Below are positions 31,285 to 58,441 of a DNA stretch of 64,000 bases, one piece after another. Source of the DNA: Vigna angularis (taxonomy: Eukaryota > Streptophyta > Magnoliopsida > Fabales > Fabaceae); NCBI RefSeq assembly GCF_016808095.1, contig NC_068978.1, forward strand, positions 27,663,306 to 27,727,305, read 5' to 3'. Under the pieces are notes generated by a model that was not told the origin of the DNA, did not search any database, and saw only the letters and a program-made list of their open reading frames with translations. The position numbers and the translations under genes were made by a program. Within the stretch, counting starts at the first letter, position 1; each line of letters begins with the position of its first letter.

Positions 31285-31289
31285 TACCA

Positions 31290-34214
31290 TGTGACATCCC
31301 AAAAATACAGTCAAAACTATAAATTTGGAAAATCACCTTTAATAATAATCCAGTACAGTTTTTTCACTAAAATTTAAAAACGAATGAACGTGCCCAAACC
31401 GCACGTCTTACATCAAGAGTCACAATCTGAAGTCGAACGCACAAATAAAAACCTGAACGAACGATTTACACAGTACAATTACCGAACGGTCAAACTTAAA
31501 AGAAAACGAGTGAGTAGGTCGAACGACCACTCACGCCAACAACTAATAGCCGAGCGTCTCCCTGCTCAGTCTTCACTTTGACTTCAACCAAGATCTCTTC
31601 GTTCAGCACCTCTTCCAAACGCTCGTCTCCATCTGCTCACATCCACACGGATGATCATTGCAATGACCAGACGGACGTACAGGTACAATAGACCACACAA
31701 GGAAAACGAAAGGGTAAGCTTACGTAATTTAACTCATGCATCAACATATAAATTTAGGTAAACAATTCAACATACATGCATATTTCAACATACACATTCA
31801 GAACATGACAACCCACTTAAACGTGCACATTAAATAAAACTCAACACGACTGACTGTCCGGACTGTATGAACTCTGTGTAGCTTCGGTGTTCGTGCACCT
31901 GGGTGATGTAGTAACTGGAACTCTCATCAGCTGCCACCCGAGGTTAATCCTATCTGTCCAAATAATCATCAGGACTAGGACCTCCTGCCGTTCCCACACA
32001 TGACGTACCCCCTCTACATGAGGACGAGTACTCACGGAACATCAGGATGAACAACCGGCTAAGCTTACCACATTCATACATTACAAATCTCAATAATCAA
32101 GTTCTGAGTCGTTCCTCCTTGGAACGCTCACTTAATCATCCATACTTTCATTTCATCTCATATATAGTTCATCATTCACTTTTGATCATATATTCATAAT
32201 TCACTAGTCATCATTCCATAATCATTTTCATCATTCATAAGGAAGCCATTAAAAAGGAATGTTCTTTCAAAAGTCACAATATTTCCATTCATCTCATGCA
32301 ATCTTCATCATTTAATATTTGTCATTTTACTATTCATCATTTACTGTTCATCATGAACTATTCATCATTTAAATACCGAACGTTCCATCACAAGGGGAAC
32401 GAGAACGAACGCTATTTTGCGAGACAAGAAGACGCTCGTTCGGATCAAAGAACGAACGTTAAGAGTGAGACCAAAAGACGCTCGTTCGTGTCAAATAACG
32501 AACGCTAAGAGCGAGACCAAAGACGCTCGTTCGTATCAAATAACGAACGCTATTTTGTGGAAAATGAGAACGAGCGCTCAAAACAATAACTAGTGTCATT
32601 TTAGGACGAACGCTCAGCATAGGGCCGAGGCTCAATTTGAGCGAGCGCTCAGTTCAAAACCGAGCACTATTTGGACGAACGCTCTTCTCAAAACCGAGCA
32701 CTATTTGGACGAACGCTCTTTCAAAACCGAGCACTATTTGGACGAACGCTCTTTCAAAACCGAGCACTATTTGAACGAACGCTCTTCTCAAAGCCGAGCA
32801 CTATTTGGACGAACGCTCTTTCAAAACCGAGCACTATTTGGACGAACGCTCTCTCAAAACCGAGCACTATTTGGACGAACGCTCTTCTCAAAGCCGAGCA
32901 CTATTTGGACGAACGCTCTTCTCAAAGCCGAGCAATATTTGGACGAACGCTCTTTCAAAACCGAGCACTATTTGGACGAACGCTCTCTATGAAAACGAGC
33001 ACCAGGACGAACGCTTAGTGTGAAACCGAACGCTAGTAGACTTTAGACACGAGGACGCTCGTCCTCAACAAGGGATCGATCCAAATGAACGAATCCCACT
33101 TCTGTTATTTTCATCAGAGAAACCGAACGGTCAGAGACCGTTCAGCAATGAACGTACGTAATTACAGGGGATTGTTTTCTTATTTCATTCCATATACCTT
33201 CCAGTTCAAAATCTCATTAAAATCACATGTAACATAGTCATATATCATTTTCATTCCATACAAACGAACGTTCATGCATCTTAGAATCCAATATCATGCA
33301 TTATATTCATACAATCAAATAACGAACGTTCACAAAAGCATACATCAAAAACAGTTAAATTAAGTAAGCTTCCCTTACCTGGAATGAACAAACGTTCACA
33401 GGCGCACACAGATGCTCTCTACTCAAATCCTTATCACCAATGCTCGTTAATCCACTATATATGAACGAACGCTCAGAAACCCACCTATATTAGGTCATAT
33501 ACTGTTAGGACGAACGTTCAGAATATTTAAGAACGAACGCTCAACATGTAACTTAAGGACGAACGCTCGACAACACTGTTTGGACGAGCGCTCGGTACTA
33601 AGACGAACGAACGTTCAGAAATGAACGCTCGACAAAGAAAAAAAAGACGAGCGTTCAAAACAACGTGGACGAACGTTCAATTTGTCAAGTTTTGGACGAA
33701 CGTCCAATTTGAAACCAAATTGGACGAACGCGATTCTGCAGATTCTGCAGAATCACAGGTTTTCCAGAAAACCCGAAAAACCTCCATTTTTAACTCTAAA
33801 GCTTTTAGATTTCTACAAAAACAATAAGATTAACTAATCAAAACGAAAAATCTAGCACCCCTTACCTCTTGAAGACTTCCTTTGTAAATCTTTGAACCTA
33901 TCTTCTCCAAGACTTGCAGCTCCAAGCAATTCCACCAAGCTTTGAACTTCTCCTTCTCTTACAAAAAAAATGGCAGCAAGGTAGCAAGGATTCTTCCCCT
34001 TCCATTGCAGAAACTCTCCCAGTGCAGAACCCCTCAACTCCTTTTATCTTCCAAGCTTGCATGGTGCCAAACACAAAAGGGAAAATCACGGACGTTCTTT
34101 GCTCCCCACTTCCAAAAAAAAACAAAACGCGTGACTTCCTAATTGCGTCCCCCACCCCTTCTAAAAATAATATTAAAATAAAAAAATAAAAAAATAAAAT
34201 ACTAGGTCCTTACA
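31290..34214 (-). repeat. 3' LTR (left copy) of the chromovirus-like element
   Basis: It is 2925 bp long; in element orientation it starts TGTAAGGACCTAGT and ends GGGATGTCACA. It matches the copy at 43339-46163 with roughly 30 scattered substitutions, many of them transitions. It is 100 bp longer because its internal 34-bp array has 10 units instead of 7. Short ORFs inside it are readings of the repeats and not genes. Confidence 0.95.
32660..33000. repeat. 34-bp minisatellite in the left LTR (10 units)
   Basis: Units follow the pattern 'gacgaacgctct', then 'tcaaaaccgagcactattt'. There are ten here and seven in the other LTR (about 44700-44940). CGAACG/GAGCG-rich motifs continue outside the regular array, from about 32370 to 33730. 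Confidence 0.95.
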
Positions 34215-34224
34215 TTCTCCCCAA
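34215..34224 (-). other. Polypurine tract of the chromovirus-like element
   Basis: Read on the minus strand, TTGGGGAGAA lies directly before the TG of the 3' LTR. This is the expected place and composition for the plus-strand primer. Confidence 0.8.
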
Positions 34225-34249
34225 CAACAAAAATTTTCGTCCTCGAAAA

Positions 34250-34410
34250 TTAGGACGGAGTCTCGAACAGATGGGGATACAAATCTTTCATAGCATCTTC
34301 CACTTCCCAAGTAGAGTCGCCCGTCTTCTCGTCCCAGACAACTTTCGCCAATCTGACTGCTTTCCTCTTGTAGTTCTTGGTGAATGTTATCTTCAATTCT
34401 AACGGGTTGC
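34250..34410 (-). pseudogene. pol 3' end remnant (chromodomain-like tail)
   Basis: The minus-strand reading contains YKRKAVRLAKVVWDEKTGDS, then a WEVEDAMKDLYPHLF-type ending and a stop at 34250-34252, just before the PPT. Endings of the form 'VRLVKVVW...TWELE..MR..YPHLF' are typical of plant chromovirus integrase/chromodomain tails. Upstream the frame is closed by stops, so this is only a stub. Confidence 0.7.
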
Positions 34411-34729
34411 ATTTCCAGCGTTATTCTCATCACTTTATAAAAGAGATTGTCGAAGTCTAAGCACATCCTGTCTGATGTGTAGAGTTGTCTCCCACTACTC
34501 ACATAATAAACCCATCCTGGTAGTTCCCACCACTCAAAGAGCTTATCAGGGTAACTTCAACCACTCATACGAGGAGACAATTCTGGACATTATGTACATC
34601 ACATAACTCACACCAAAATCATGGCGTAATTACACTCAACCACATAGCAAGAGACTCTCTCTAATTTGAATAATTCATACTCCCAAAATGTGGCAAAAAT
34701 CGTATAATACAATATTATAATTATTATTA

Positions 34730-34738
<9 letters not shown>

Positions 34739-34784
<46 letters not shown>
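34739..34784. repeat. (AT)n microsatellite
   Basis: A long (TA)n run follows 'ttattatttatttattta'. It sits between the pol stub and the start of the WOX-like cassette. Confidence 0.9.
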
Positions 34785-34785
<1 letters not shown>

Positions 34786-34803
34786 AACCACTACTATTGA
34801 AGA

Positions 34804-35655
34804 TTCCGGTATGCATGACCGGAACTGTGAGCATAGTGAGGTTTTTTGGCTATAAGTAAGGCGTTAGCCGCGTTGGGTGACACGTCGAAACGCTGAGATT
34901 TTCAGAGCGCGTGAGAGAGAGAGAGAGATCTGAGTACCGAGAGTTCTGAGAGTAAAAACTTTGCGAGATCTGAACGCCTGAGTGCTGGAGATCGGAGAGT
35001 CTTCCGGCAAGCTTCAATCTACAAGTTCCTAGGCTTTGCTCCGCCTCGAGTAAGTACTTCCTTTCTCTTATCTCTTCTTTTTCTTTACTTCTCGCTTCTT
35101 TTCTTCCCTTTCTTCTTTCTGCTTCCTTTCATGTACTTTTCTTTTTTCTTTTTCTTTTCTGAGCTTTTATTTCCCGCAATTTTATTCTGCTTTCTTCTTT
35201 ACTTTCCGTTTTGTTATTTTTACTTTTGCTCCTGCATTTACTTTCTTCTTCTTCTATTTTCCTTTTATTAACAAAGACTAAGAACACACTGTCTTAACAA
35301 AGATAAGGGGTATATCGGCTGGAAACCAGACGTTAATCTCCCTTCGTTTGAAGGTATGGTAGAGACAATCCGGTAGAACAACGCCACGTACCCCATGAAA
35401 ACAGAAAACTTTAAAAAGAGAAATTTATTTGTATGAACCGGACATGGACAAATTGACATAGATCCGTTTAGGAACCTTTGCGAGGACCGTGAAACAGATC
35501 TGAGACTAGACACTAAACAACAATGATTGGCTGGACAAAAGAACCTAAAAGGGAACAAAACAAATAAAGAAAACACTGAATATTTTTGTTCTGTTTTTGC
35601 CCTTTTTATTTTATTTTATTATTTCATTATGCTTTAGAAATACTTTGAGAGGAAG
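34804..35655 (+). promoter_or_regulatory. Promoter-like region and intron-containing 5' leader of the WOX-like gene
   Basis: A perfect inverted repeat, TTCCGGT-(7)-ACCGGAA, is at 34804-34824. TATAAGTA at 34851-34858 could serve as TATA box. A GC-richer leader with a GA repeat follows. A putative 5' UTR intron runs from GTAAGT at 35050 to a T-rich stretch and TTTAG ending at 35637, leaving a short leader before the ATG at 35656. The signals are all on the plus strand, opposite to the host element. Confidence 0.45.
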
Positions 35656-36196
35656 ATGAATGAGATGGAGATGGAGAGGTACACCAGTCAGCGGTGGAGA
35701 CCTATTGATGATCAGGTCAAAATGATGACCAATATCTTCAACTACGGGGTCACACATCCCAGCAGAGCCCAAGTTGTCGAGATTGCGTCTCGACTAAGGG
35801 CCTTTGGAGAAGTCAGTGAATATAATGTACACTGCTGGTTCAACAATCATGGTAACCGAGTCAGGCGCTGGCAAGCCGACTTAGACCCCACTGGCACCCT
35901 ATTTTCTCAGCTGCCGCTGTACATGTATGGTAAGAACCCTAATTACCACTATTTTTTGTTTGAATTTTACTCTTCCTTCTCCATTATTGACACAAATTTC
36001 TTTGTTGGAAGAATATGACTGGGTAATTATGAGGGCGCCGAGGTTGCTGAATTTGTTCCCAGTTCCGATCATTATTGACGACGATAGAGACGAACGACAA
36101 ATCGCTCCACCCATGCTTCTGACATTCCGAACCAGAGCTCCTTCGACGGAGCTCTCCCTTAGGCCACCACAACCCGCTCGAGAATTTTTTCACTAA
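35656..36196 (+). CDS. WUSCHEL-related homeobox (WOX)-like protein inside a retrotransposon
   Basis: Two exons (35656-35929 and 36012-36196, GT-AG intron with matching phase) give 152 residues. Residues 12-72 read as a WOX-type homeodomain: QRWRPIDDQV opens helix 1, SRLRAFGEVSEYNV leads into helix 3, and CWFNNHGNRVRRW is the recognition helix. WOX proteins normally have NVFYWFQNHKAR there; the invariant W, F, second N and H are kept, while Q is replaced by N and K by G. Residues 103-109 (LLNLFPV) resemble the WUS box (TLxLFP). Residues 138-144 (ELSLRPP) resemble an EAR repression motif. WOX proteins are nuclear regulators of stem-cell identity. It is shorter than normal WOX proteins and lies antisense between gag and pol stubs, so it is a transduplicated gene copy. 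The frame is intact, but whether it is expressed is unknown. Confidence 0.7.
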
Positions 36197-37171
36197 ATAT
36201 TATTATTTAATGGTCTGTAATATTAACGATCAGCATTGATCGAACCCCGAACATCTTTTATTTGCTTTTGTTTATTTGCTTATTTGCGTATTTTATGGAC
36301 TGTAATATTTAACGATCACTTATGATCGACTCTAGAACATCTTTATTTTAATTATGCATTGTAATATTTATCTGCCCTGCTAGTTTGATGATTATTATTT
36401 TTATTATCTGCCCTGCCAGTTATATATTTTTCTAACGATTTATTTACAGGTTAACGTCTTACCAAACTCAAGAGTATCAGAAGAGAAAAACCTCACAGAA
36501 ACACAACCACCTGTTTGTAATTTTTATTGTATTTATTTAAAATATATATATATATGTACTTGTTCATAAATTCATATTAATTTATTACACAATTTTGAAA
36601 TTTGACTCAGAGTTATTCTCAACTATTTTTATTTTTATCTGGCCCCAACGAAAAACATAATAAGTTATCAATGAGTTTGAAACGCATTAAAATTATGTCT
36701 AAAAATTTATCAAGATTTTAACGATACTTCAATACTCGATGAGGTAAACAAAACACTAATTTGCCCCAAACTTAAAACAACCTTTGTGTTCGCAGACTCT
36801 AAATTAATCAATAGAATTTCACATTAAGGCAAAAATAACAAAGTATTAATGAACTTTGAAAACATAGAACACATACGTTTAACACAACCTGAACTGGGTG
36901 AAACTGAAAAATTATATTGGCTCACAATGACATTGAAAACAAAAGACATATGAACGGGGGCCGAAATCTGGTTTAGACACATAGAGGTTGATAACCCAAA
37001 ATTGATACATGTTAATGAAATGAATGAATGTTTAAGGTTGAACATGACTGGATTAAAACATTATCTTGATGAAAAAAACGGTTTAAACAGTGTTTAGGCT
37101 TAAACACGAGCGATGGACCAAACACAGCACATCTAGGTTAAGACAGGGAGAATTAAGCTCATAGTGGATAA
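36197..37171 (+). other. 3' flank of the WOX-like gene up to the nested solo LTR
   Basis: Just after the stop, a block is repeated imperfectly: 'tgtaatattaacgatcagcattgatcgaaccc' type sequence at about 36212 and again near 36302 ('tgtaatatttaacgatca...gatcgactct'). 36541-36555 is an AT microsatellite. No coding sequence is recognised, and I could not assign the remainder (36600-37171) to the host element or to the captured gene. Confidence 0.45.
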
Positions 37172-37798
37172 TGTCGCAACCGGAATCGCGACGGGACGAC
37201 GATCCAATAAAAAAAACGGATAAATATATTGAAAAGAGATTTTTTGGAGTCGCCACCATAGTTTATTCTGGAAAACTACGGAAAAACCATAAAATGATAA
37301 GGCATGGTCAAATTGAACCAGATTCTTGGTTCGGGAGTCGGTTACGTGTAGGGAAGGTATTAGCACCCTACAACGCCTGCCCTAAGGCAGTACCTTTAAC
37401 TAAATGTGCGAATGTGGATGTGGTTTTCAAAGTGTTTAACTTTCCCTTAAAATAAAACTCGAAAGAAACAAACAATATTTTTTAGCTTTTTGGGCCCGAC
37501 AAGGATTGACCTTGCTCCTACGTATTCTCATGTGAGAAATCAGGGTTACGTAGTTCTTTTAGAAACTGTTGAGAAATTTGTTTGAAAATTTGTTTCAGAA
37601 TTTGTTTGGAAAATGATTTGGATTTTTGGGAAAGTGAGCCTGACAAGGACTGGCCTTGCTCCTAGGTATCTCCACTTTTGATGGAGAATCAAGGATCACG
37701 TAGTTCTGGAGGCGATATTGTTTGTTGTTTGAAATTGTTGATGTTTTTGGCTTTTGAGGATTTTTATATTTTTTTGGTATTTTTATTTAGGAAAAAGA

Positions 37799-38767
37799 AA
37801 AGGTTTTTGGCACAAGGACGATGCGTGCGATCACACATGTGCCTAAACCTTTAAAACATATTTTTTGTAATTTTATTTAAAAGAGAGATAAGGTTTTTAG
37901 CACAAGGACGATGCGTGCGATCACACATGTGCCTAAACCTTTGGAACATATTTTTGGGATTCTGAAGAAAGAGAAAAGATTTTCGGCACAAGGACGATGC
38001 GTGCGATCACACATGTGCCTAAACCTTTAAAACATATTTTTTTGGTATTTTTGAAGAAAGAGAAAAGGTTTTTGGCACAAGGACGATGCGTGCGATCACA
38101 CATGTGCCTAAACCTTAAAAATATATTTTTTGTATTTTGAAGAAAGAGAGAAGGTTTTTGGCACAAGGACGATGCGTGCGATCACACATGTACCTAAACC
38201 TTTAAAACATATTTTTGTAATTTTTTGATGAAAGAGAAAAGGTTTTTGGCACAAGGACGATGCGTGCGATCACACATGTGCCTAAACCTTTGAAACATAT
38301 TTTTGGCGTTTTGATGAAAGAGAAAAGGTTTTTGGCACAAGGACGATGCGTGCGATCACACATGTGCCTAAACCTTTAAAACGTATTTTTGGTATTTTGA
38401 AGAAACAGAAAAGGTTTTTGGCACAAGGACGATGCGTGCGATCACACATGTGCCTAAACCTTTAAAACATATTTTTTTGGTATTTTTGAAGAAAGAGAAA
38501 AGGTTTTCGGCACAAGGACGATGCGTGCGATCACACATGTGCCTAAACCTTTAAAACGTATTTTTGATATTTTGAAGAACGAGAAAAGGTTTTCGGCACA
38601 AGGACGATGCGTGCGATCACACATGTGCCTAAACCTTTAAAACGTATTTTTGGCGTTTTGATGTAAGAAAGAGAAAAGGTTTTTGGCACAAGGACGATGC
38701 GTGCGATCACACATGTGCCTAAACCTTTGAAACATATTTTTTTGGTATTTTTGAAGAAAGAGAAAAG
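37799..38767. repeat. Minisatellite of 11 copies, about 85-90 bp, within the solo LTR
   Basis: The core 'ggcacaaggacgatgcgtgc' followed by 'gatcacacatgtgcctaaacc' occurs 11 times, starting near 37809 and ending near 38730. The cores are almost identical; the spacer (aaaacatatttttggtattttgaagaaagag type) varies in length. Each core contains GGCACA...TGTGCC as an inverted repeat. Confidence 0.95.
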
Positions 38768-41764
38768 TTATTATTTTAATTATTTATTTTTTTGTGATTT
38801 CTGTTTATTATAAAAAAGTGAGTGTGTGTAGTGTTTGACAAATAAAAGATACAAATACAGTACAAAAGGGATGGGAGTTATCTTACAAGGGGATTACACA
38901 ATAAAAATTAATGACCAGACAAAAAAATAAAATTAAGAAACTAAAGCGTAAAAAAAAATAAAACAAGAGAAAAGCTCAAATAAATTAGGGGTACAGAGAT
39001 AAAAACCAGGGGTGCCAAGTGAAACTGAAGCTCCTTTGTTTGGGTCAATTCCTTTTTCTCCAACTTTGAATCTGCCAAGGTGTGAAGACGAAATTTGGGG
39101 GTGCCATTGGGTATTTGCTTGTCTGGCCCAAAGCCTCTTTTCGTTCTTTCATCAGAAATCTAGAGACCTGAAGCCTCTCTCCCGAACGAGCAAGCAAAAA
39201 GAGGGATGTGCCTCGTCCTCCAACACACATGCGCCACTGCCTCCGTCGAAGCCGTGAACCGCCGTTTGCGGCGTCGCCAGTAACGACGCGTGCCACCGGA
39301 GCCATCGTCAGCCACGGCGCTAGGTTCTCCTTTTCCTCTTCTCCCGCGCAAAGTTCACCAAGGGCGATAGAGACGGCGTCGCGGTTTGCTCCTGTTGGGT
39401 TCATCATTGATGGCATATGGGGCCGTCGGGGGTATCACCAATTTCAACACAAACCTTCCTTCTTCGTTCCAAATTAAACGCCACAATTCTGGGCACCTGG
39501 GTCACGCTGCTACTGTTCTTACTAAGGGCATCACCAGAACTACCATTGTCACGCTTTTCGCCCACATTTTCCACTTTATTTCATTCTCATTGGTTTCTCT
39601 TGTGGTTGTAGAGTGGAACAGGACATGAGCGGGTCATGGTTCGATTTTGGTAATGGATGCTCCGCGTGTTTAGGTTTGGATAGATGGAAGATGAAGATGG
39701 TCGTGAGGTCAATGTATAAGGTGTGGAGATGATGGTCTGAGGTGAATGCAAATGAAGGAAGATTAATGGAGATGAATGTCTATGGTATCTGGATGAAGAT
39801 GAGGGTGATGAACGGAGAAGAAAAACGGCCTTGGCCGGGTGTGTGGTTGGGAGTGATGAAGTTTGAGGTTAGGCCGTGATATCTGGTGAATGAAGATTAA
39901 GATGATGGGTTGATGAAAAGGGAGGAATATAGCAGTGAGTCTCAACGGAGATGGAGGCCAGAGGTGTATGGTTGCTGATGGATGCGAGTTTGCTGGCTGG
40001 GATAGATGATGATGGGTGGAGATAGGTAGTGGCCGTGAGTGCGGATATAGCTATGGTGACTGGTGCATATGGATGTTTGGTAATAATAGATGGGTACGAA
40101 TATTCACACAGCATCTATTTAACTTAACACATGCAAACTTAACACATGCAACGTAGCAGCAGTATAACAAAGATACATTCAAAGACGACTAACCAAACTC
40201 AGTAAAACATGGAGCGGGTGACATTACTTACCTCTTGAAGCATAGTTCACTGTTTGCTAATCCCGTACGTCCGGTGTCTTCTTCTTCCTAGTGGTTGGCC
40301 TGCCTTTTTCGATAAGGTGCTCCTCCCTCTGAATGTGGAGTGTTGTAGTGGTCTCTCAGTCGTTGGGAGTGACGGCGTAACGTGTTGCTGGCAGCACCTC
40401 TCCCGAACACTCCTCTAGCCGTTGGATGCTCCCTGCTGGAATGTTGTAAAGCGTTTTCAATGATGGATGAAGGCTTGCTGGATGAAGATAAGCGTGATGG
40501 AGCTGGAGTTGCTATGTGGATGGTGTTCGAGAGGAATATCAGCAGTGATGAAGCTGGAGCTTGTGTCTGGTTTTTCCGTGACAGTGGGTGAATATGGGTG
40601 GTGGAGAGTTACAATGGTGCAACGGTGATGAAGGAGCTAGACGGTAGTATTGAGGATGGCAATGGCGGCTGAGGGGGCTTGGGATGATGACGGCTGTGAC
40701 TCAAAGATGGGTTCCTGGTGGTCCCGTGGAGGTGCAACCCGGTGGCTGATGAGTAAGTCGTGATTGAAGGATTGGCGTGAATGGATAATGATGTTGGTGG
40801 TGGAGTTCGGTTTGAATATGCCCCGGTGACTTTGCTGGAGATTCAGTTTCGTTCTGGTGAGGATGATGGAGATTGGCTGTGAGGTCAAGATGCTGGATAT
40901 GGTGATGATGATAGGTATGGTGAGTGATGGTCGCGTAGTTATGAGGTGTTTTAGGGTGGCTGTGACAGTGGGTGAATATGGTTGGAGATGGTCATTGGGT
41001 GAGGATAGGTGGTGGCCTTTAGGTGTTGGTAGTGGCTGCTCGAGATGGATATGCAGGGGTGGTGATGATCTTGGCTGTGTGCCAAAAATGGAGGATCAAA
41101 GAATCAGGATCATGGTGTTGGCCCCCCGTATTGGTTATTGGGAATAGGTGAAGATGAGGTGATTAACCGTGAGCCCCCCCCAAAACCAAGGTTGGTGTCC
41201 CCTCCCTGTATCAATGATGATGAAAGAATCCCCCGATCATGGTGTTGGCCGTGGGTGAATGTGGATCCTGGAGATCTTTTTGGGTGTCTCCCTCCTCTCC
41301 TTTTCGTTCCCGCACGTTGTAGTGGTGTAGCCAGCTTTTCAGAGTTGCAAGATGGGTATTACAGAAGTGCCAGATGGGTGCTCGTGGAAGACAAACTCCG
41401 GTGGGAGTGTCAGAAAAATGATTCCCTTCTTCTGCAGAAACCCATACTGTGAGTGGCTTTTTTTTTACTTTGGCCGCCTGGTGTTCTTGATCATGTGCCC
41501 CCAGCAGTTACTATGATGTGGTGTGCTTCTCTTCCAGCCGGGCCCTGAATATGGAGCTGCCCATGCTGCCAACGTGTTGCTCGTGTATCTATTTCCAGCC
41601 ATGCACCCACCTTTCTCCAAATTAAAAATCCAAAAGTGAAAGCCTGCCAAAAATATTCTCTTGCACCCATACTGCAAATAGCTTTTCAGACGGTTAATGG
41701 CGGACACGGCAGCATGAAGGTGGGAATCTTCGCTGTCATATCAATTTTAAAATGCAGCCAGTTT

Positions 41765-42431
41765 TGGACGTTCGGTCAAGAGCCCGCTACCAAAACGAAC
41801 GACCATTACAAAGATGAACGAATGTCCAGATCGAACGTTCACGAGGTAAACAATCTGATACAGGCCGAACGCAAACAGTAACAAAGAACGAACGTTCAAA
41901 TAGTCAATGAACGAAAACCGAACGTTCACTAACACAAAACAAGACCGAACGTTCACTAACACAAAACACGACCGAACGGTAAACTTGTCGGGCCGAACGG
42001 TTGCACAGTGCAAAGGACGAACAGTCACTGTTTGGACGAGCGGCCACAGTAACAGTGGGTAAGGACGAACGGTTACTGTTTGGACGAGCGGCCACAGCAA
42101 CAGTGGGAAAGGACGAACGCTTGATCAAAGAGGACGAACGCTCGCAAGCTTGAATACTGGACGAACGGTTGAATAGTGAAAAAGGACGAACGGTCGCATA
42201 AGGGAGAGGACGAACGTTCGCACGAGGCAAGGACGAGCGGTTTGAAACTGAGGACGAACGTCCCAAATTAACACATGGCCGAACAGCCGAATACTGAAAG
42301 ACCGAACGCTCAAGCAGTCGATTCTGGGCGAACGGTCGCAGAAACAGTGGGTGAGGACGAACGGTCACTGTTCGGACGAACGTCCTCAGCAACAGTGGGA
42401 AAGGACGAACGGTCACTGTTTGGACGAACGA
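41765..42431. repeat. GACGAACGG-rich array near the end of the solo LTR
   Basis: Irregularly spaced motifs of the form (g/c)gaacg(g/t)tc alternate with 'cactgtttggacga' and 'cagtaacagtgggtaa' blocks. The region is followed by a long T-rich tract. The same CGAACG motif dominates the LTRs of the host element. Confidence 0.85.
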
Positions 42432-42649
42432 CCATCCCCTTTTTTTTATTTTTATTTTTTTATTTATTTTTTATTTATTTTTTGCTATTTTATTTTTTTT
42501 ATTTTTTTTTTAATTTTTGTTATTATATACCCTTTTTTTTTTTTTTGATATTTATTTCTTTTGTTGGTGAAAATAAATTTTATTTAATCAACCCGGACGA
42601 AATTGAGTGTTGACAGATAACAATTATTATTTATTTATTTTATTTTATA

Positions 42650-43197
42650 TATAACCGAAGTCGTGGTGTACAATCGGAGCAAGTGCTCGAACCTGTATGC
42701 ATACTCAGTCCCGACCTATTTCCCGGTATTAACTGAAGGAATTCAATCTCCAGGTCATACCTTACACTGTAAGGAAAGTACTCAGTATATGCTAGCTCTT
42801 TCTCATCTGGACATCTCTTAGCACTATAAATTCTCTCAATGTCCCTAAACCACTGATCAGCTTCATTCGAACTGTAGTTCCATCAAACCGGGCTGGATGA
42901 TGTTGTAGAAAGTTTTCCAAGTTCCACTCTTGGACCGGAATAACAGAAGAGAAAACACCCTGAACGGTCCTGCCACTAGTCAATCACTTTAATGGATTGT
43001 CTTTAAGTGTTCTCAGATGTTACTCTCGCGTTCTCGGCAAATACCCTTGCGGCTTCTAGATTATGCAGGGTTATGGTATTTTACTCCACCAATGCAGCAT
43101 TCTGTTCTTGCAACGCTTGGGGCACCGCATTCAGCATCTGATTAGAGTCAGACGGATCAACTCCCTGGGACGAAGTAGGAGAAGAAGTAGATACCAT
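42650..43197 (-). pseudogene. gag N-terminal remnant of the chromovirus-like element
   Basis: On the minus strand an ATG at 43197 opens MVSTSSPTSSQGVDPSDS, then reaches a stop at 43083. After frame changes, gag-type sequence resumes: EWNLENFLQHHPARFDG near 42930, then DQWFRDIERIYSAKRCPDEK and ELAYTEYFPYSVRYDLEIEF around 42855-42740. These are hallmarks of the Retrotrans_gag domain of legume Gypsy elements. The frame is broken by at least one stop and a frameshift, and the capsid half and zinc knuckle are missing. Confidence 0.8.
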
Positions 43198-43320
43198 CTT
43201 CTGTTCATACAGAAAGAAAGACATTTAGCCTTACTCAAATCAACACAACTTCCAACCCGAGACCAAAGTACACAATCACAAACGAAGCGCACCCACAACC
43301 TACAGGTTTCTAAGGAAGAA

Positions 43321-43334
43321 CTGCTCTGATACCA
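43321..43334 (-). other. Primer binding site, tRNA-iMet type
   Basis: Read on the minus strand, TGGTATCAGAGCAG lies four bases after the end of the 5' LTR. It is complementary to the 3' end of plant initiator methionine tRNA and fixes the element's orientation. Confidence 0.9.
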
Positions 43335-43338
43335 CTAA

Positions 43339-46163
43339 TGTGACATCCCAAAAATACAGTCAAAACTATAAATTTGGAAAATCACCTTTAATAATAATCC
43401 AGTATAGTTTTTCCACTAAAATTTAAAAACGAATGAACGTGCCCAAACCGCACGTCTTACATCAAGAGTCACAATCTGAAGTCGAACGCACAAATAAAAA
43501 CCTGAACGAACGATTTACACAGTACAATTACCGAACGGTCGAACTTAAAAGAAAACGAGTGAGTAGGTCGAACGACCACTCACGCCAACAACTAATAGCC
43601 GAGCGTCTCCCTGCTCAGTCTTCACTTTGACTTCAACCAAGATCTCTTCGTTCAGCACCTCTTCCAAACGCTCGTCTCCATCTGCTCACATCCACACAGA
43701 TGATCATTGCAATGACCAGACGGACGTACAGGTACAATAGACCACACAAGGAAAACGAAAGGGTAAACTTACGTAATTTAACGCATGCATCAACATATAA
43801 ATTTAGGTAAACAATTCAACATACATGCATATTTCAACATACACATTCAGAACATGACAACCCACTTAAACGTGCACATTAAATAAAACTCAACACGACT
43901 GACTGTCCGGACTGTATGAACTCTGTGTAGCTTCGGTGTTCGTGCACCCGGGTGATGTAGTAACTGGAACTCTCATTAGCTGCCACCCGAGGTTAATCCT
44001 ATCTGTCCAAATAATCATCAGGACTAGGACCTCCTGCCGTTCCCACACATGACGTACCCCCTCTACATGAGGACGAGTACTCACGGAACATCAGGATGAA
44101 CAACCGGCTAAGCTTACCACATTCATACATTACAAATCTCAATAATCAAGTTCTGAGTCGTTCCTCCTTGGAACGCTCACTTAATCATCCATACTTTCAT
44201 TTCATCTCATATATAGTTCATCATTCACTTTTGATCATATATTCATAATTCACTAGTCATCATTCCATAATCATTTTCATCATTCATAAGGAAGCCATTA
44301 AAAAGGAATGTTCTTTCAAAAGTCACAATATTTCCATTCATCTCATGCAATCTTCATCATTTAATATTTGTCATTTTACTATTCATCATTTACTGTTCAT
44401 CATGAACTATTCATCATTTAAATACCGAACGTTCCATCACAAGGGGAACGAGAACGAACGCTGTTTTGCGAGACAAGAAGACGCTCGTTCGGATCAAAGA
44501 ACGAACGTTAAGAGTGAGACCAAAAGACGCTCGTTCGTGTCAAATAACGAACGCTAAGAGCGAGACCAAAGACGCTCGTTCGTATCAAATAACGAACGAT
44601 ATTTTGTGGAAAATGAGAACGAGCGCTCAAAACAATAACTAGTGTCATTTTAGGACGAACGCTCAGCATAGGGCCGAGGCTCAATTTGAGCGAGCGCTCA
44701 GTTCAAAACCGAGCACTATTTAGACGAACGCTCTTTCAAAACCGAGCACTATTTGAACGAACGCTCTTCTCAAAGCCGAGCACTATTTGGACGAACGCTC
44801 TTTCAAAACCAAGCACTATTTGGACGAACGCTCTCTCAAAGCCGAGCACTATTTGGACGAACGCTCTTCTCAAAACCGAGCAATATTTGGACGAACGCTC
44901 TTTCAAAACCGAGCACTATTTGGACGAACGCTCTCTATGAAAACGAGCACCAGGACAAACGCTCAGTGTGAAACCGAACGCTAGTAGACTTTAGACACGA
45001 GGACGCTCGTCCTCAACAAGGGATCGATCCAAATGAACGAATCCCACTTCTGTTATTTTCATCAGAGAAACCGAACGGTCAGAGACCGTTCAGCAATGAA
45101 CGTACGTAATTACAGGGGATTGTTTTCTTATTTCATTCCATATACCTTCCAGTTCAAAATCTCATTAAAATCACATGTAACATAGTCATATATCATTTTC
45201 ATTCCATACAAACGAACGTTCATGCATCTCAGAATCCAATATCATGCATTATATTCATACAATCAAATAACGAACGTTCACACAGGCATACATCAAAAGC
45301 AGTTAAATTAAGTAAGCTTCCCTTACCTGGAATGAACGAACGTTCACAGGCGCACACAGACGCTCTCTACTCAAATCCTTATCACCAACGCTCGTTAATC
45401 CACTATATATGAACGAACGCTCAGAAACCCACCTATATTAGGTCATATACTGTTAGGACGAACGTTCAGAATATTTAAGAACGAACGCTTAACATGTAAC
45501 TTAAGGACGAACGCTCGACAACACTGTTTGGACGAGCGCTCGGTACTAAGACGAACAAACGTTCAGAAACGAATGCTCGACAGAGAAAAAAAAGACGAGC
45601 GTTCAAAACAACGTGGACGAACGTTCAATTTGTCAAGTTTTGGACGAACGTCCAATTTGAAACCAAATTGGACGAACGCGATTCTGCAGATTCTGCAGAA
45701 TCACAGGTTTTCCAGAAAACCCGAAAAACCTCCATTTTTAACTCTAAAGCTTTTAGATTTCTACAAAAACAGTAAGATTAACTAATCAAAACGAAAAATC
45801 TAGCACCCCTTACCTCTTGAAGACTTCCTTTGTAAATCTTTGAACCTATCTTCTCCAAGACTTGCAGCTCCAAGCAATTCCACCAAGCTTTGAACTTCTC
45901 CTTCTCTTACAAAAAAAATGGCAGCAAGGTAGCAAGGATTCTTCCCCTTCCAGTGCAGAAACTCTCCCAGTGCAGAACCCCTCAACTCCTTTTATCTTCC
46001 AAGCTTGCATGGTGCCAAACACAAAAGGGAAAATCACGGACGTTCTTTGCTCCCCACTTCCAAAAAAAAAAACAAAACGCGTGACTTCCTAATTGCTTCC
46101 CCACCCCTTCTAAAAATAATATTAAAATAAAAAAATAAAAAAATAAAATACTAGGTCCTTACA
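43339..46163 (-). repeat. 5' LTR (right copy) of the chromovirus-like element
   Basis: It is 2825 bp with the same termini as the left copy and 7 units in the 34-bp array (about 44700-44940). Allowing for the array, about 1% of positions differ from the left LTR. With an assumed plant rate of 1.3e-8 per site per year, that would place the insertion a few hundred thousand years ago. Confidence 0.95.
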
Positions 46164-46168
46164 TACCA

Positions 46169-55192: not shown

Positions 55193-55626
55193 TGTTTCGG
55201 TGGAAAGTTTTGGGACCGAGAAACTAACCTGTTGATGCGTCTGGGCCGCTCGCTCGCCTCCAAACTCCAACTGTTGGTCGATCGGTGTTGACGCAAGCCG
55301 ATCGGTCTCCTTTTGAACGAGGGTGGATGTACCTGCAAAAGGTACTCCGACGCCCAAGTTAGGCGTGTGATTTTGAGGAGCCTCGGCTCTTAGTTGAATG
55401 TTTTGTGAATGATTTTCACTATTGAGTATTTGAGAGTAGCGTAGATTGAATAATGCGTAAGTGGAACGTACCTGGCCTTTGGCCCTGGCTTTGTATTTAT
55501 AATTTACCTCATGGATCTTAAGCTGATATAAGCCCAATAAAATATAAACAGAATAAGATATAAACAGATTACCTGAATATCCGGTTGGTTGTTTGTAACC
55601 ACTCGGTTAATATTTTATACTATACA
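55193..55626 (-). repeat. 3' LTR of the gag-only element
   Basis: 434 bp; on the minus strand it starts TGTATAGTATAAAATATT and ends CTTTCCACCGAAACA. It contains paired 'ccgatcggt' type motifs. Confidence 0.95.
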
Positions 55627-55637
55627 TGCCCCCCAAG
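55627..55637 (-). other. Polypurine tract of the gag-only element
   Basis: On the minus strand CTTGGGGGGCA directly precedes the TG of the 3' LTR. Confidence 0.75.
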
Positions 55638-55689
55638 TCCGAGTTAAGCGGTCGGCTTTAGCCGTGGTTAACTATAGGACTGATGAGTT

Positions 55690-56513
55690 TGAGGGAGGTT
55701 GCGTTGGCGGAACTGAAAGCGTTTTACCGCTCGACCTTCAATAGTAACCGAGCGGAATTTACCGCTCGGTCTTCGACATTTGTCGAGAGGGTTTTACCTC
55801 TCGACCTTCGACAGTAACCGAGCGGGATTTACCGCTCGTTCTTCAACAGGAAACGAGAAGATTTTACCTCGCGGTCTTCGACATTTGTCGAGAGGGTTTT
55901 ACCTCTCGACCTTCGACATTTAACCGAGCGGGTTTTACCGCTCGTCCTTCAACAGGAACCGGGAGGAATTTACCTCTCGGTCTTCGACATTTTGTCGAGA
56001 GGGTTTTACCTCTCGACCTTCGACATTTAACCGAGCGGGATTTACCGCTCGTCCTTCAATAGGAACCGAGAGGAATTTACCTCTCGGTCTTCGACATTTG
56101 TCGAGAGGGTTTTACCTCTTGCCCGAGGGGGATTTACCGCTCGGTCTTCGACCTAGGAGTACTTCCTAGGGAACGGGCTTTACCGTTCGACTTTGAGAGG
56201 GTTTTACCTCTGCTTTGAGCTAGGAGTGTTTCCTAGTGAACGGGATTTACCGTTCGTCGTTGAGAGGGCTTTACCTCTTGCCCGAGGGGGATTTACCGCT
56301 CGGTCTTCGACCTAGGAGTGCTTCCTAGGGAACGGGCTTTACCGTTCGACTTTGAGAGGGTTTTACCTCTGCTTTGAGCTAGGAGTGTTTCCTAGTGAAC
56401 GGGATTTACCGTTCGTCGTTGAGAGGGCTTTACCTCTTGCCCGAGGGGGATTTACCGCTCGGTCTTCGACCTAGGAGTGCTTCCTAGGGAACGGGCTTTA
56501 CCGTTCGGCTTTG
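55690..56513. repeat. Array of short hairpins in place of pol
   Basis: Almost every 25-30 bases there is a small inverted repeat with a loop of type (g)ttttA: CGAGCGG...CCGCTCG, CGAGAGG...CCTCTCG, GAACGG...CCGTTC, GAGAGG...CCTCT, or CTAGGA...TCCTAG. The left part has units of about 105 bp built from two stem types. The right part has two exact-length 159-bp units (56153-56311 and 56312-56470) and a partial third. Linkers read 'tcttcgac(att)' or 'ccttcgaca'. The arms vary between hairpins but stay complementary to each other, including GAACGG/CCGTTC and CGAGCGG/CCGCTCG. Confidence 0.9.
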
Positions 56514-56656
56514 AAATTCTGGTTTGAAATTGGTAACCGATGGTCGAGCGTGAATTGCTCGATTTTATTCATTGCATAACGAAAGTTTAGTAAAATAACA
56601 AAAGTCTAAATCAAGAATTTAAACATGACACTAAATAGAGATGGGGATTCCTATCT

Positions 56657-57970
56657 TTAGTTTACTACTCCGCGAACCGATCGTTCACGATGGCGAGCAG
56701 GACTGCGACTATAGTCTCGCCTTCGTTCGTTCTTCCGATACGCTCGTTCGGGACTTCTTCTTGCTTCCTGTATGTACTTACGGAGGTGTCCTGCCCGAAC
56801 GAGACGTTCTATTTCGTTTTTGAGCGTAATGCATTCTTCTGTAGTATGTCCACGATTCTGATGGAAATGACAGCTCTTCCTTTCATCTGCGTATCTTGGA
56901 GATGGTTTCGTTTGGAGTGTGAGAAGTTCAGCGTTTAGAGCTTCTTCAAGAACTTTTGCCCTAGGTGTGTTGAGGGGTGTATAGTGATTAAATTTAAATG
57001 TTCGGGAAAACTCCCCGCTTTTACCATTATTGCCGAACGGTCGTTTACCGTCCTTTCTACCTCCACTTGCCTCAGTTTCTTGTTGTCGCTTTCTTTGTGA
57101 AATTCGCATGTCCTCCATGCGGATGAATTCGGCTATCCGTTCTTGGAGCTCCCCCATTGTTTTTGGGGGTCGTGCATACAATTTCTCAGCAAAGTACCCT
57201 GGTTTTAGACAGGAAGGCAAATTGGTGATGATAAAAGATTGACTTACCTCTTTGACTCGTCGTGCAGTTTCCATATACCTTTTCATAAAGGCCTTCAAAG
57301 TTTCTCCCTTTTCCTGCTTAGTATTTACCAATTCCGCTGGCGTTACTTCTTGATTACGATTGGAGGCGTATTGCCTTTTAAAAAGATTTTCCACAGTGGC
57401 GAAGCAATCCACTGTGTTTGGGGGAAGAGTGTTATACCACTCTAATGCTTCGTCCTTGAGTGATAAGGAGAAGGCTCTGCACATAACCGGATCACTGTCC
57501 GTGTAGAACATCATTGCATTGGTGAAAACCCTGAGATGATTATCGGGATCTGTCGAGCCATCGTACTTATCCAATACAGGAGGGTTCTTCTCTGGCATTG
57601 GAGCTTGCATGATGATCGCAGTGAAAGGGAGCAGACTGGAGGGCCGATCGGTTCGTAAGGGGGACGGTTCCCTTCTTCCCCGATCGTTCGGGTCGGTATG
57701 CCGAGATGGCTGCTGATTACGACTTCCAGCATTATCATTGTGTTGGTTGTTACCCCGATCGGCTGTGGACTCCGAGTGTTGAGTTGACCGCTCGGCACGA
57801 CCTCGTTCTGCTCTCAACATTGTAATTTCTTCTGCGTGTCTTCGCTGCATCTCCTGTTGTGCATGCGTTTGTGCTTGTATGGTTCTGGCTTGTGCCTGTA
57901 TTTGCGCCTGCATCTGCGCTATCAAATCTCTGGTGTGTTGTTCTTCCTCCATGCTCCTCGTGGTCACCAT
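56657..57970 (-). CDS. gag: Retrotransposon Gag polyprotein (Tat-type Gypsy), intact
   Basis: 437 codons from the ATG at 57970 (MVTTRSMEEEQHTRDLIAQM) to the stop ending at 56657. The frame is open further upstream through the PBS into the LTR (next ATG 58153), but the first ATG after the PBS is the natural start. Residues 8-60 form a Q/R/E-rich coiled coil. Residues 141-243 are the Retrotrans_gag capsid domain (DPDNHLRVFTNAM, ALEWYNTLPP, VENLFKRQYA, KQEKGETLKAFMKRYMETA). Residues 367-380 (CHFHQNRGHTTEEC) form a zinc knuckle of CHHC rather than CCHC type. The tail is rich in arginine and serine (RRRDYSRSPARHRERS). Gag would form the cytoplasmic particle that packages the RNA. No frame continues into protease or polymerase. 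Confidence 0.93.
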   Translation of the reverse strand: MVTTRSMEEEQHTRDLIAQMQAQIQAQARTIQAQTHAQQEMQRRHAEEITMLRAERGRAERSTQHSESTADRGNNQHNDNAGSRNQQPSRHTDPNDRGRREPSPLRTDRPSSLLPFTAIIMQAPMPEKNPPVLDKYDGSTDPDNHLRVFTNAMMFYTDSDPVMCRAFSLSLKDEALEWYNTLPPNTVDCFATVENLFKRQYASNRNQEVTPAELVNTKQEKGETLKAFMKRYMETARRVKEVSQSFIITNLPSCLKPGYFAEKLYARPPKTMGELQERIAEFIRMEDMRISQRKRQQETEASGGRKDGKRPFGNNGKSGEFSRTFKFNHYTPLNTPRAKVLEEALNAELLTLQTKPSPRYADERKSCHFHQNRGHTTEECITLKNEIERLVRAGHLRKYIQEARRSPERAYRKNERRRDYSRSPARHRERSVRGVVN

Positions 57971-57986
57971 TTGGGTTTGCCGCTCG

Positions 57987-58004
57987 GCCCCACGGTGGGC
58001 GCCA
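57987..58004 (-). other. Primer binding site of the gag-only element
   Basis: On the minus strand TGGCGCCCACCGTGGGGC lies three bases after the LTR. The TGGCGCC start is the complement of a tRNA 3' end; I did not identify the tRNA. It is the usual form for Tat-lineage elements. Confidence 0.8.
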
Positions 58005-58007
58005 AAA

Positions 58008-58441
58008 TGTTTCGGTGGAAAGTTTTGGGACCGAGAAACTAACCTGTTGATGCGTCTGGGCCGCTCGCTCGCCTCCAAACTCCAGCTGTTGGTCGATCGG
58101 TGTTGACGCAAGCCGATCGGTCTCCTTTTGAACGAGGGTGGATGTACCTGCAAAAGGTACTCCGACGCCCAAGTTAGGCGTGTGATTTTGAGGAGCCTCG
58201 GCTCTTAGTTGAATGTTTTGTGAATGATTTTCACTATTGAGTATTTGAGAGTAGCGTAGATTGAATAATGCGTAAGTGGAACGTACCTGGCCTTTGGCCC
58301 TGGCTTTGTATTTATAATTTACCTCATGGATCTTAAGCTGATATAAGCCCAATAAAATATAAACAGAATAAGATATAAACAGATTACCTGAATATCCGGT
58401 TGGTTGTTTGTAACCACTCGGTTAATATTTTATACTATACA
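58008..58441 (-). repeat. 5' LTR of the gag-only element
   Basis: 434 bp, identical to the 3' LTR except for G at 58085. Confidence 0.95.

Follow-up and report, generated by a model that had tools for sequence, protein, structure and literature searches.

A WOX-type homeobox gene lies antisense in LTR retrotransposons of Vigna angularis and is likely maintained as their accessory gene

The DNA analysed here (hereafter the window, a stretch of 64,000 nucleotides from Vigna angularis) contains a two-exon WOX gene that lies antisense in an LTR retrotransposon and recurs in many related elements of the same genome. The reading that we consider probable is that this gene is under selection within the elements, likely as their accessory gene, and that it encodes a predicted WUSCHEL-like repressor. 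The best-supported origin of such an accessory gene is a host WOX gene. The gene and its carrier are described below, followed by the copies elsewhere in the genome, the selection on the protein, and the explanations that compete with this reading.

An open two-exon gene encodes a short WOX protein

Positions 35656-36196 on the plus strand of the window form an open gene of two exons, with 274 + 182 coding bases and a stop codon, for a product of 152 residues. Coding exon 1 (35656..35929) starts with the ATG at 35656 and encodes the homeodomain; a GT...AG intron follows (35930..36011, donor GT at 35930), and coding exon 2 (36012..36196, stop codon at 36194-36196) carries the WUS-box-like LLNLFPVP and, within ELSLRPP, the EAR-like ELSLR. 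The initial annotation had proposed a frame of this length with a WUSCHEL-type homeodomain and with LLNLFPV and ELSLRPP as its repression motifs, and these assignments hold. The Pfam Homeodomain model scores the product at 28.3 bits, which is significant against a cut-off of 22.9, and the nearest solved structures by sequence are WUSCHEL (E 1.2e-10) and STENOFOLIA (E 3.2e-10). The top PDB matches of an AlphaFold2 model are likewise the STF and WUS homeodomains, in a model whose mean pLDDT is only 55, with 73-85 in the homeodomain blocks and low values outside the homeodomain. We take the two exon 2 motifs to resemble the canonical WUS-box and EAR motif, with the first T of the canonical box being L here. 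By its WUS-type homeodomain and its WUS-box- and EAR-like motifs, the product is a WOX protein.

Upstream, a putative promoter and 5' exon (34804..35049, plus strand) are predicted from sequence only, and a predicted 5' UTR intron (35050..35637, plus strand) has GT...AG ends that are seen in the sequence. We infer that a promoter belonging to the gene itself drives its transcription.

In WUS, R38, N90, and R94 are given as the residues that read bases (PMC7203112). Alignment to WUS places these at R13, N64, and R68 of the window protein; N64 and R68 are identical in 31/31 genomic copies (the window and the 30 best others), and R13 is Q in L026. The product is therefore like WUSCHEL and STENOFOLIA in its homeodomain, its WUS-box and EAR-type motifs, and its base-reading residues. 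It is unlike them in being short and in several substitutions, of which Q89 to N, K92 to G, and the changes at the phosphate contacts (K82 to Y and Y86 to C) occur in all 31 copies; A93 is N in the window protein. The first and second of these are the helix changes that the initial annotation had pointed out. LL[ND]LFP[VI] is found in 31 and ELSLR in 29 of the 31 genomic copies. In a tree, the 31 short proteins form a long branch apart from nine canonical WOX sequences.

Two further groups of short WOX-like proteins (P0061-P0077) have intermediate recognition helices and occur in V. angularis, V. radiata (P0071), and V. umbellata (P0072 and P0075). The helix reads WFQNYGYR in P0073-P0077, mostly WFQNHGNR in P0061-P0072, and WFNNHGNR in the group of the window protein.

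The carrying element is structurally complete

The gene sits antisense in a structurally complete minus-strand LTR element at 31290-46163, which has the paired LTRs, TSD, PBS, and PPT of an LTR retrotransposon. The TSD TGGTA lies at 31285..31289 and 46164..46168. The 3' LTR (31290..34214, minus strand, 2925 bp) pairs with the 5' LTR (43339..46163, minus strand, 2825 bp), and the PBS, read from the sequence as TGGTATCAGAGC, lies at 43323..43334 on the minus strand. We take this PBS to be of the initiator-Met type. The PBS, the LTR pair, and the TSD together bear out the antisense orientation that had been proposed for the gene. Alignment of the two LTRs over 2823 bases shows 30 substitutions (K2P 0.0107), equivalent to about 0.4 My at a rate of 1.3e-8 per site per year.

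Two remnants, both on the minus strand and both named by eye, flank the gene: a pol-end remnant (34253..34556), which a PPT-like stretch separates from the LTR, and a gag remnant (about 42643..43221). Pfam searches returned no match for the window's gag pieces and only an irrelevant one for the pol piece. The open gag frame of another copy, L035, matches Retrotrans_gag and finds the window's gag remnant at E 1.7e-17, and relatives of the pol-end remnant are present in L001, L002, L005, L008, and L009. The window's element thus retains remnants only, with no intact gag-pol, and is not autonomous.

The initial annotation had placed the gene between a gag stub and a pol stub. Remnants of both are indeed at its sides, but the gag remnant was moved away from the gene, for the greater part of their present separation, by a later nested insertion (37172..42615) that lies outside the basic element and is flanked by the TSD GATAA (37167-37171 and 42616-42620). 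Bases matching 37171 and 42616-42650 adjoin in 10 of the 15 long clade A loci (L032, L033, L036, L037, L039, L045, L046, L048, L049, and L050; clade A is the window's clade in the gene tree below). The basic element is therefore short, and two of these loci are complete, L039 at 7766 bp (TSD GTTAG) and L049 at 8055 bp (TSD GTATA). The possibility that the WOX gene is cargo of a separate nested transposon was rejected for clade A, in which element homology runs past the gene on both sides and the nested part is confined to 37172-42615.

Other repeats were observed in the window. The nested insertion begins TGTCGCAACCGGAATCG, a start that recurs in L040, and holds an 86-bp-type tandem array at 37696-38741. 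A short element-like unit at 55193-58441 has 434-bp direct repeats that are 99.8% alike. The 515-aa minus-strand frame between them contains a Retrotrans_gag domain, and no pol was observed. An 826-bp tandem duplication with 100% identity at 1272-2915 reflects either a recent event or an assembly effect. Within the LTRs, a 33/34-bp tandem array rich in GACGAACG/GAACGCTC is located at 32600-33020 and 44635-45002. These motifs are frequent in most of the clade A LTRs counted, but the L050 LTR has almost none and clade B LTRs have none; the GACGAACG arrays were rejected as binding sites on this distribution. Self-regulation via WUS sites in the LTRs is not supported either, since motif counts show no enrichment of known WUS sites.

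Copies of the gene are numerous and occur in more than one element type

When the 448-Mb assembly (window on contig C9) was searched with the 152-aa protein, 1008 candidates emerged at first look; 150 of these were scored and gave at least 300 matches. The suggestion that the family had spread is thus supported. By eye, an internal stop is present in the matched stretch of 9 of about 150 rows. Among public proteins there are 59 matches, all named V. angularis and in clusters of up to 62 members, and no relatives of the gene were found in viral and GTDB contigs.

The best 30 copies (L001-L030) were chosen by protein similarity, which favours intact frames. In all 30, exon 1 is exactly 274 nt long, as in the window, a GT...AG intron of 78-135 nt is at the same place, and the frame is open for 149-156 aa, with the C-terminal tail out of frame in L023. 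Retention of the coding intron, as the initial annotation had claimed for the window, is therefore common to these copies. The intron would survive retrotransposition because the gene is opposite to the element RNA and would not be spliced from it. The 16 best copies have collinear homology with the window's element well beyond the gene. Together, the homeodomain match, the complete element, and the junctions shared among copies agree with the proposed WOX origin and capture by a retrotransposon.

Twenty of the 30 best copies were read over 9.9 kb. In 13 of these 20 loci there are paired LTRs that align over 1536-2689 bases and differ at 0-7 of them (K2P 0 to 0.004); in 10 of the 13, one LTR extends off the stretch and the comparison covers the remaining part. 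Eleven pairs belong to the window's element type and two (L041 and L042) to a different type, with a PBS that reads TGGCGCC. The gag-like frame of L041/L042 presumably resembles Athila; Pfam gave no useful match for it. The other seven loci have no usable LTR pair: no pair is present within 9.9 kb in L031, L038, L040, L044, and L045, L043 has only a weak 369-bp LTR match (70%), and a 417-bp match in L032 (99.5%) was left out of the 13. On the strand opposite the gene, 15 of the 20 loci (13 + 2) carry a PBS of one of these types, and these are all the loci with a recognised PBS. No same-strand PBS was found in the 20 loci except one TGGCGCC-type site in L032.

In the gene tree, the window and L001-L016 form one clade (clade A, support 99), and L017, L021-L023, L025, and L028-L030 form another (clade B, support 100), whose flanks are shared with L041-L043. 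A third background comprises clade C with L018 (L018, L019, L020, L024, L026, and L027) and, among the loci read over 9.9 kb, L040 and L044; it has neither an LTR pair nor a PBS in that span. The gene unit occurs in two element types, and what all backgrounds have in common is the gene, which covers 35064-36296 or so at the most and 35283-36191 in most clade B copies. Since the gene alone is shared across backgrounds, it either moved between element types or was captured repeatedly, in each case as a unit.

The gene contrasts with gag in its state. In 12 of 13 elements, the longest sense-strand frame between the gene and the PBS has 74-122 aa, the exception being L035, in which a 466-aa gag frame runs into a protease domain; gag is thus broken in 12 of the 13 elements checked.

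Two WOX copies that encode identical proteins, L008 and L009, are 6.8 kb apart (G000:C6, about 30.866 and 30.873 Mb), possibly as a tandem element array sharing an LTR.

The protein is conserved at the codon level

If the gene were carried without consequence, amino acid changes would be expected to accumulate at a rate similar to silent changes. Instead, dN/dS among the 31 sequences is 0.109 (summed dN over summed dS, Nei-Gojobori), and none of the pairs reaches 1. This value is based on 460 of the 465 pairs, five with dS of 0.03 or less having been left out, and L023 was masked after codon 119, where its tail is shifted. Median dS is 0.51, with values up to 1.16 against the window. Within clades, dN/dS is 0.22 (A), 0.14 (B), and 0.17 (C). 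By region, pN/pS is 0.024 in the recognition helix, 0.09 in the WUS-box, 0.10 in the EAR motif, and 0.38 in residues 114-129. Similarly, 6 recognition-helix changes compare with about 31 expected in a neutral codon simulation of 30 proteins (the window and 29 near-full-length annotated copies), with 0/200 runs as low in either of two settings. A neutral gene would hardly reach a dS near 1 with a dN of 0.07, even given the bias toward intact frames, and the codon comparisons indicate strong purifying selection on the protein. A protein in another frame or strand was rejected as the cause, as all other exon 1 frames are closed in 31/31 copies. With the recognition helix and both repression motifs under constraint, the dominant-negative form that the initial annotation had considered is not supported. 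Against the refuting outcomes that the annotation had set for itself stand the significant homeodomain score, the large number of copies, and the strong constraint.

Low dN/dS could also be a legacy of the host. If host WOX genes had been captured repeatedly and then carried passively, the constraint would date from before capture. The annotated proteins of V. angularis, V. radiata, and V. umbellata include related short WOX proteins, and the two or more element types would allow at least two entries. The relatives in families 2 and 3 may be host genes, and part of the constraint could therefore predate capture. However, clade A traces to one capture, because element junctions are common to its copies, and yet its copies differ by dS of up to 0.31 at the dN/dS given above, where none of the 132 pairs reaches 1 and five reach 0.5. 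The flanks of clade A are, moreover, more diverged than its coding exons; in the region 34804..35049, for instance, mean identity to the window is 63-86% per 60-bp bin in eight clade A copies. Passive carriage is accordingly unlikely as the full account.

A second alternative is that the plant uses the WOX copies, for example in development or stress, so that selection acts on the plant. The Vigna species with WOX bursts are coastal, and the relevant section of the report describes the contribution of the bursts as unknown (PMC10714607). However, the 0-7 differences in the 13 LTR pairs mean that the insertions are too young for the dS between copies to have accumulated at fixed sites, which makes host use improbable. 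Young insertions whose genes are far apart at silent sites would instead reflect selection along lineages that kept transposing, consistent with a gene maintained by the elements.

A 92-nt non-coding block within the predicted 5' UTR intron (35304..35395) has the same length in 29/31 copies; it was missing by pattern search in L028 and L029. It is nearly identical between clades whose silent dS is 0.6-0.9, and is thus more conserved than silent sites. On the minus strand of the window it folds better than 200/200 shuffles (z -3.2), whereas the plus strand, in three copies, shows no such advantage over shuffles (z -1.1 to -1.5). Only 1 of 26 predicted pairs has a compensatory change, and Rfam gave no match to the block. 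A need of the elements for an antisense RNA or for this structured block, in place of the protein, would fit the conservation and the minus-strand fold, and antisense RNA roles have been proposed for such elements in a section of PMC7264820, but the codon-level constraint and fixed exon 1 length indicate a translated product and the pairing and plus-strand results also speak against it, leaving this the least probable of the alternatives by our estimate, and a very improbable one. A role of the RNA or block and a role of the protein can both be true together.

A possible role for the protein

The preferred reading, that of a selected accessory gene, suggests a mechanism. With R38, N90, and R94 kept, Q89 replaced by N, and the phosphate contacts K82, Y86, and K92 lost, the protein may bind shifted sites. 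Through its WUS-box and EAR motifs it would recruit a TOPLESS-type co-repressor, and it may thereby shift the transcription of meristem or germ-line precursor cells so as to promote transposition. In the mechanism chosen here, the targets of repression would be host promoters in the meristem or in germ-line precursors. In its broadest form, the proposal is that a regulator of host stem cells was taken over by unrelated Vigna LTR lineages. The antisense WOX repressor, its recognition helix rebuilt, would then be the last intact gene of many elements, would move between element types as one unit, and would be selected for reprogramming meristem or germ-line precursor cells to the elements' benefit. 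This broad form is tentative, and we regard it as possible rather than probable. A point against the accessory-gene reading is that a trans-acting nuclear protein has no obvious benefit to its own copy over neighbouring ones.

Comparison with known systems

Dispersal of WOX genes by LTR elements in Vigna is already known. According to the relevant section of a 2023 meeting report, WOX genes are amplified in V. marina and V. riukiuensis and are mostly flanked by identical LTRs with TSDs, and V. riukiuensis has more than 1000 copies (talk by K. Naito; PMC10714607). Like the present case, these bursts consist of WOX amplification within TSD-flanked LTR elements of Vigna, and very likely are the same phenomenon as the window's elements. 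That section does not describe orientation, introns, gag/pol state, element types, protein change, or selection (PMC10714607). What is added here is the antisense layout with the retained intron, the presence of more than one element type, the decayed gag, the remodelled recognition helix, and the purifying selection indicated by codon comparisons. Searches of an open-licence PMC library found no account of WOX genes in LTR elements that describes an antisense layout, retained introns, or selection, and a term search of the main text of a 2026 gene-capture review found none of the words homeobox, WUSCHEL, antisense, and intron (PMC13317346). WOX family expansion has also been reported in Vigna reflexo-pilosa (PMC10357499). 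The higher WOX copy number is alike, and the portion of that report on the expansion draws no link to transposable elements; the expansion may be due to these elements.

Host gene sequence within an LTR element is also found in Bs1 and Rider/SUN (PMC7264820, PMC13317346). However, such transduced genes are usually sense and in one or few copies (PMC7264820), whereas the WOX gene is antisense, has kept its intron, is present in very many copies, and appears selected, and thus does not belong to the Bs1 type.

The closer parallel is with antisense accessory ORFs of plant Ty3/gypsy elements, of which Grande gene23, RIRE2, Retand (TRP28), and PvRetro13 are described in sections of PMC7264820 and PMC11963269. 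They share with the WOX gene an orientation antisense to gag-pol, many copies, and a possible nuclear or DNA-binding role. The defining antisense orientation of the aORF-3R class in most copies is seen here in 15/15 loci with a PBS, all of which were found via the gene. The location differs, as theirs is between pol and the 3' LTR, whereas the WOX gene has the gag remnant on one side and the pol-end remnant on the other, the latter separating it from the 3' LTR. Furthermore, theirs are without clear host relatives, in contrast to the recognisable WOX gene. In those sections, antisense accessory genes of plant retrotransposons are described without known origin or function (PMC7264820, PMC11963269). 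Because the WOX origin is clear in the present case and the codon data indicate that the protein matters, accessory-gene function becomes directly testable by way of a well-studied class of transcription factors. If this reading is correct, annotated WOX expansions in Vigna genomes would partly be mobile elements, and a mobile element would carry a relative of a stem-cell regulator.
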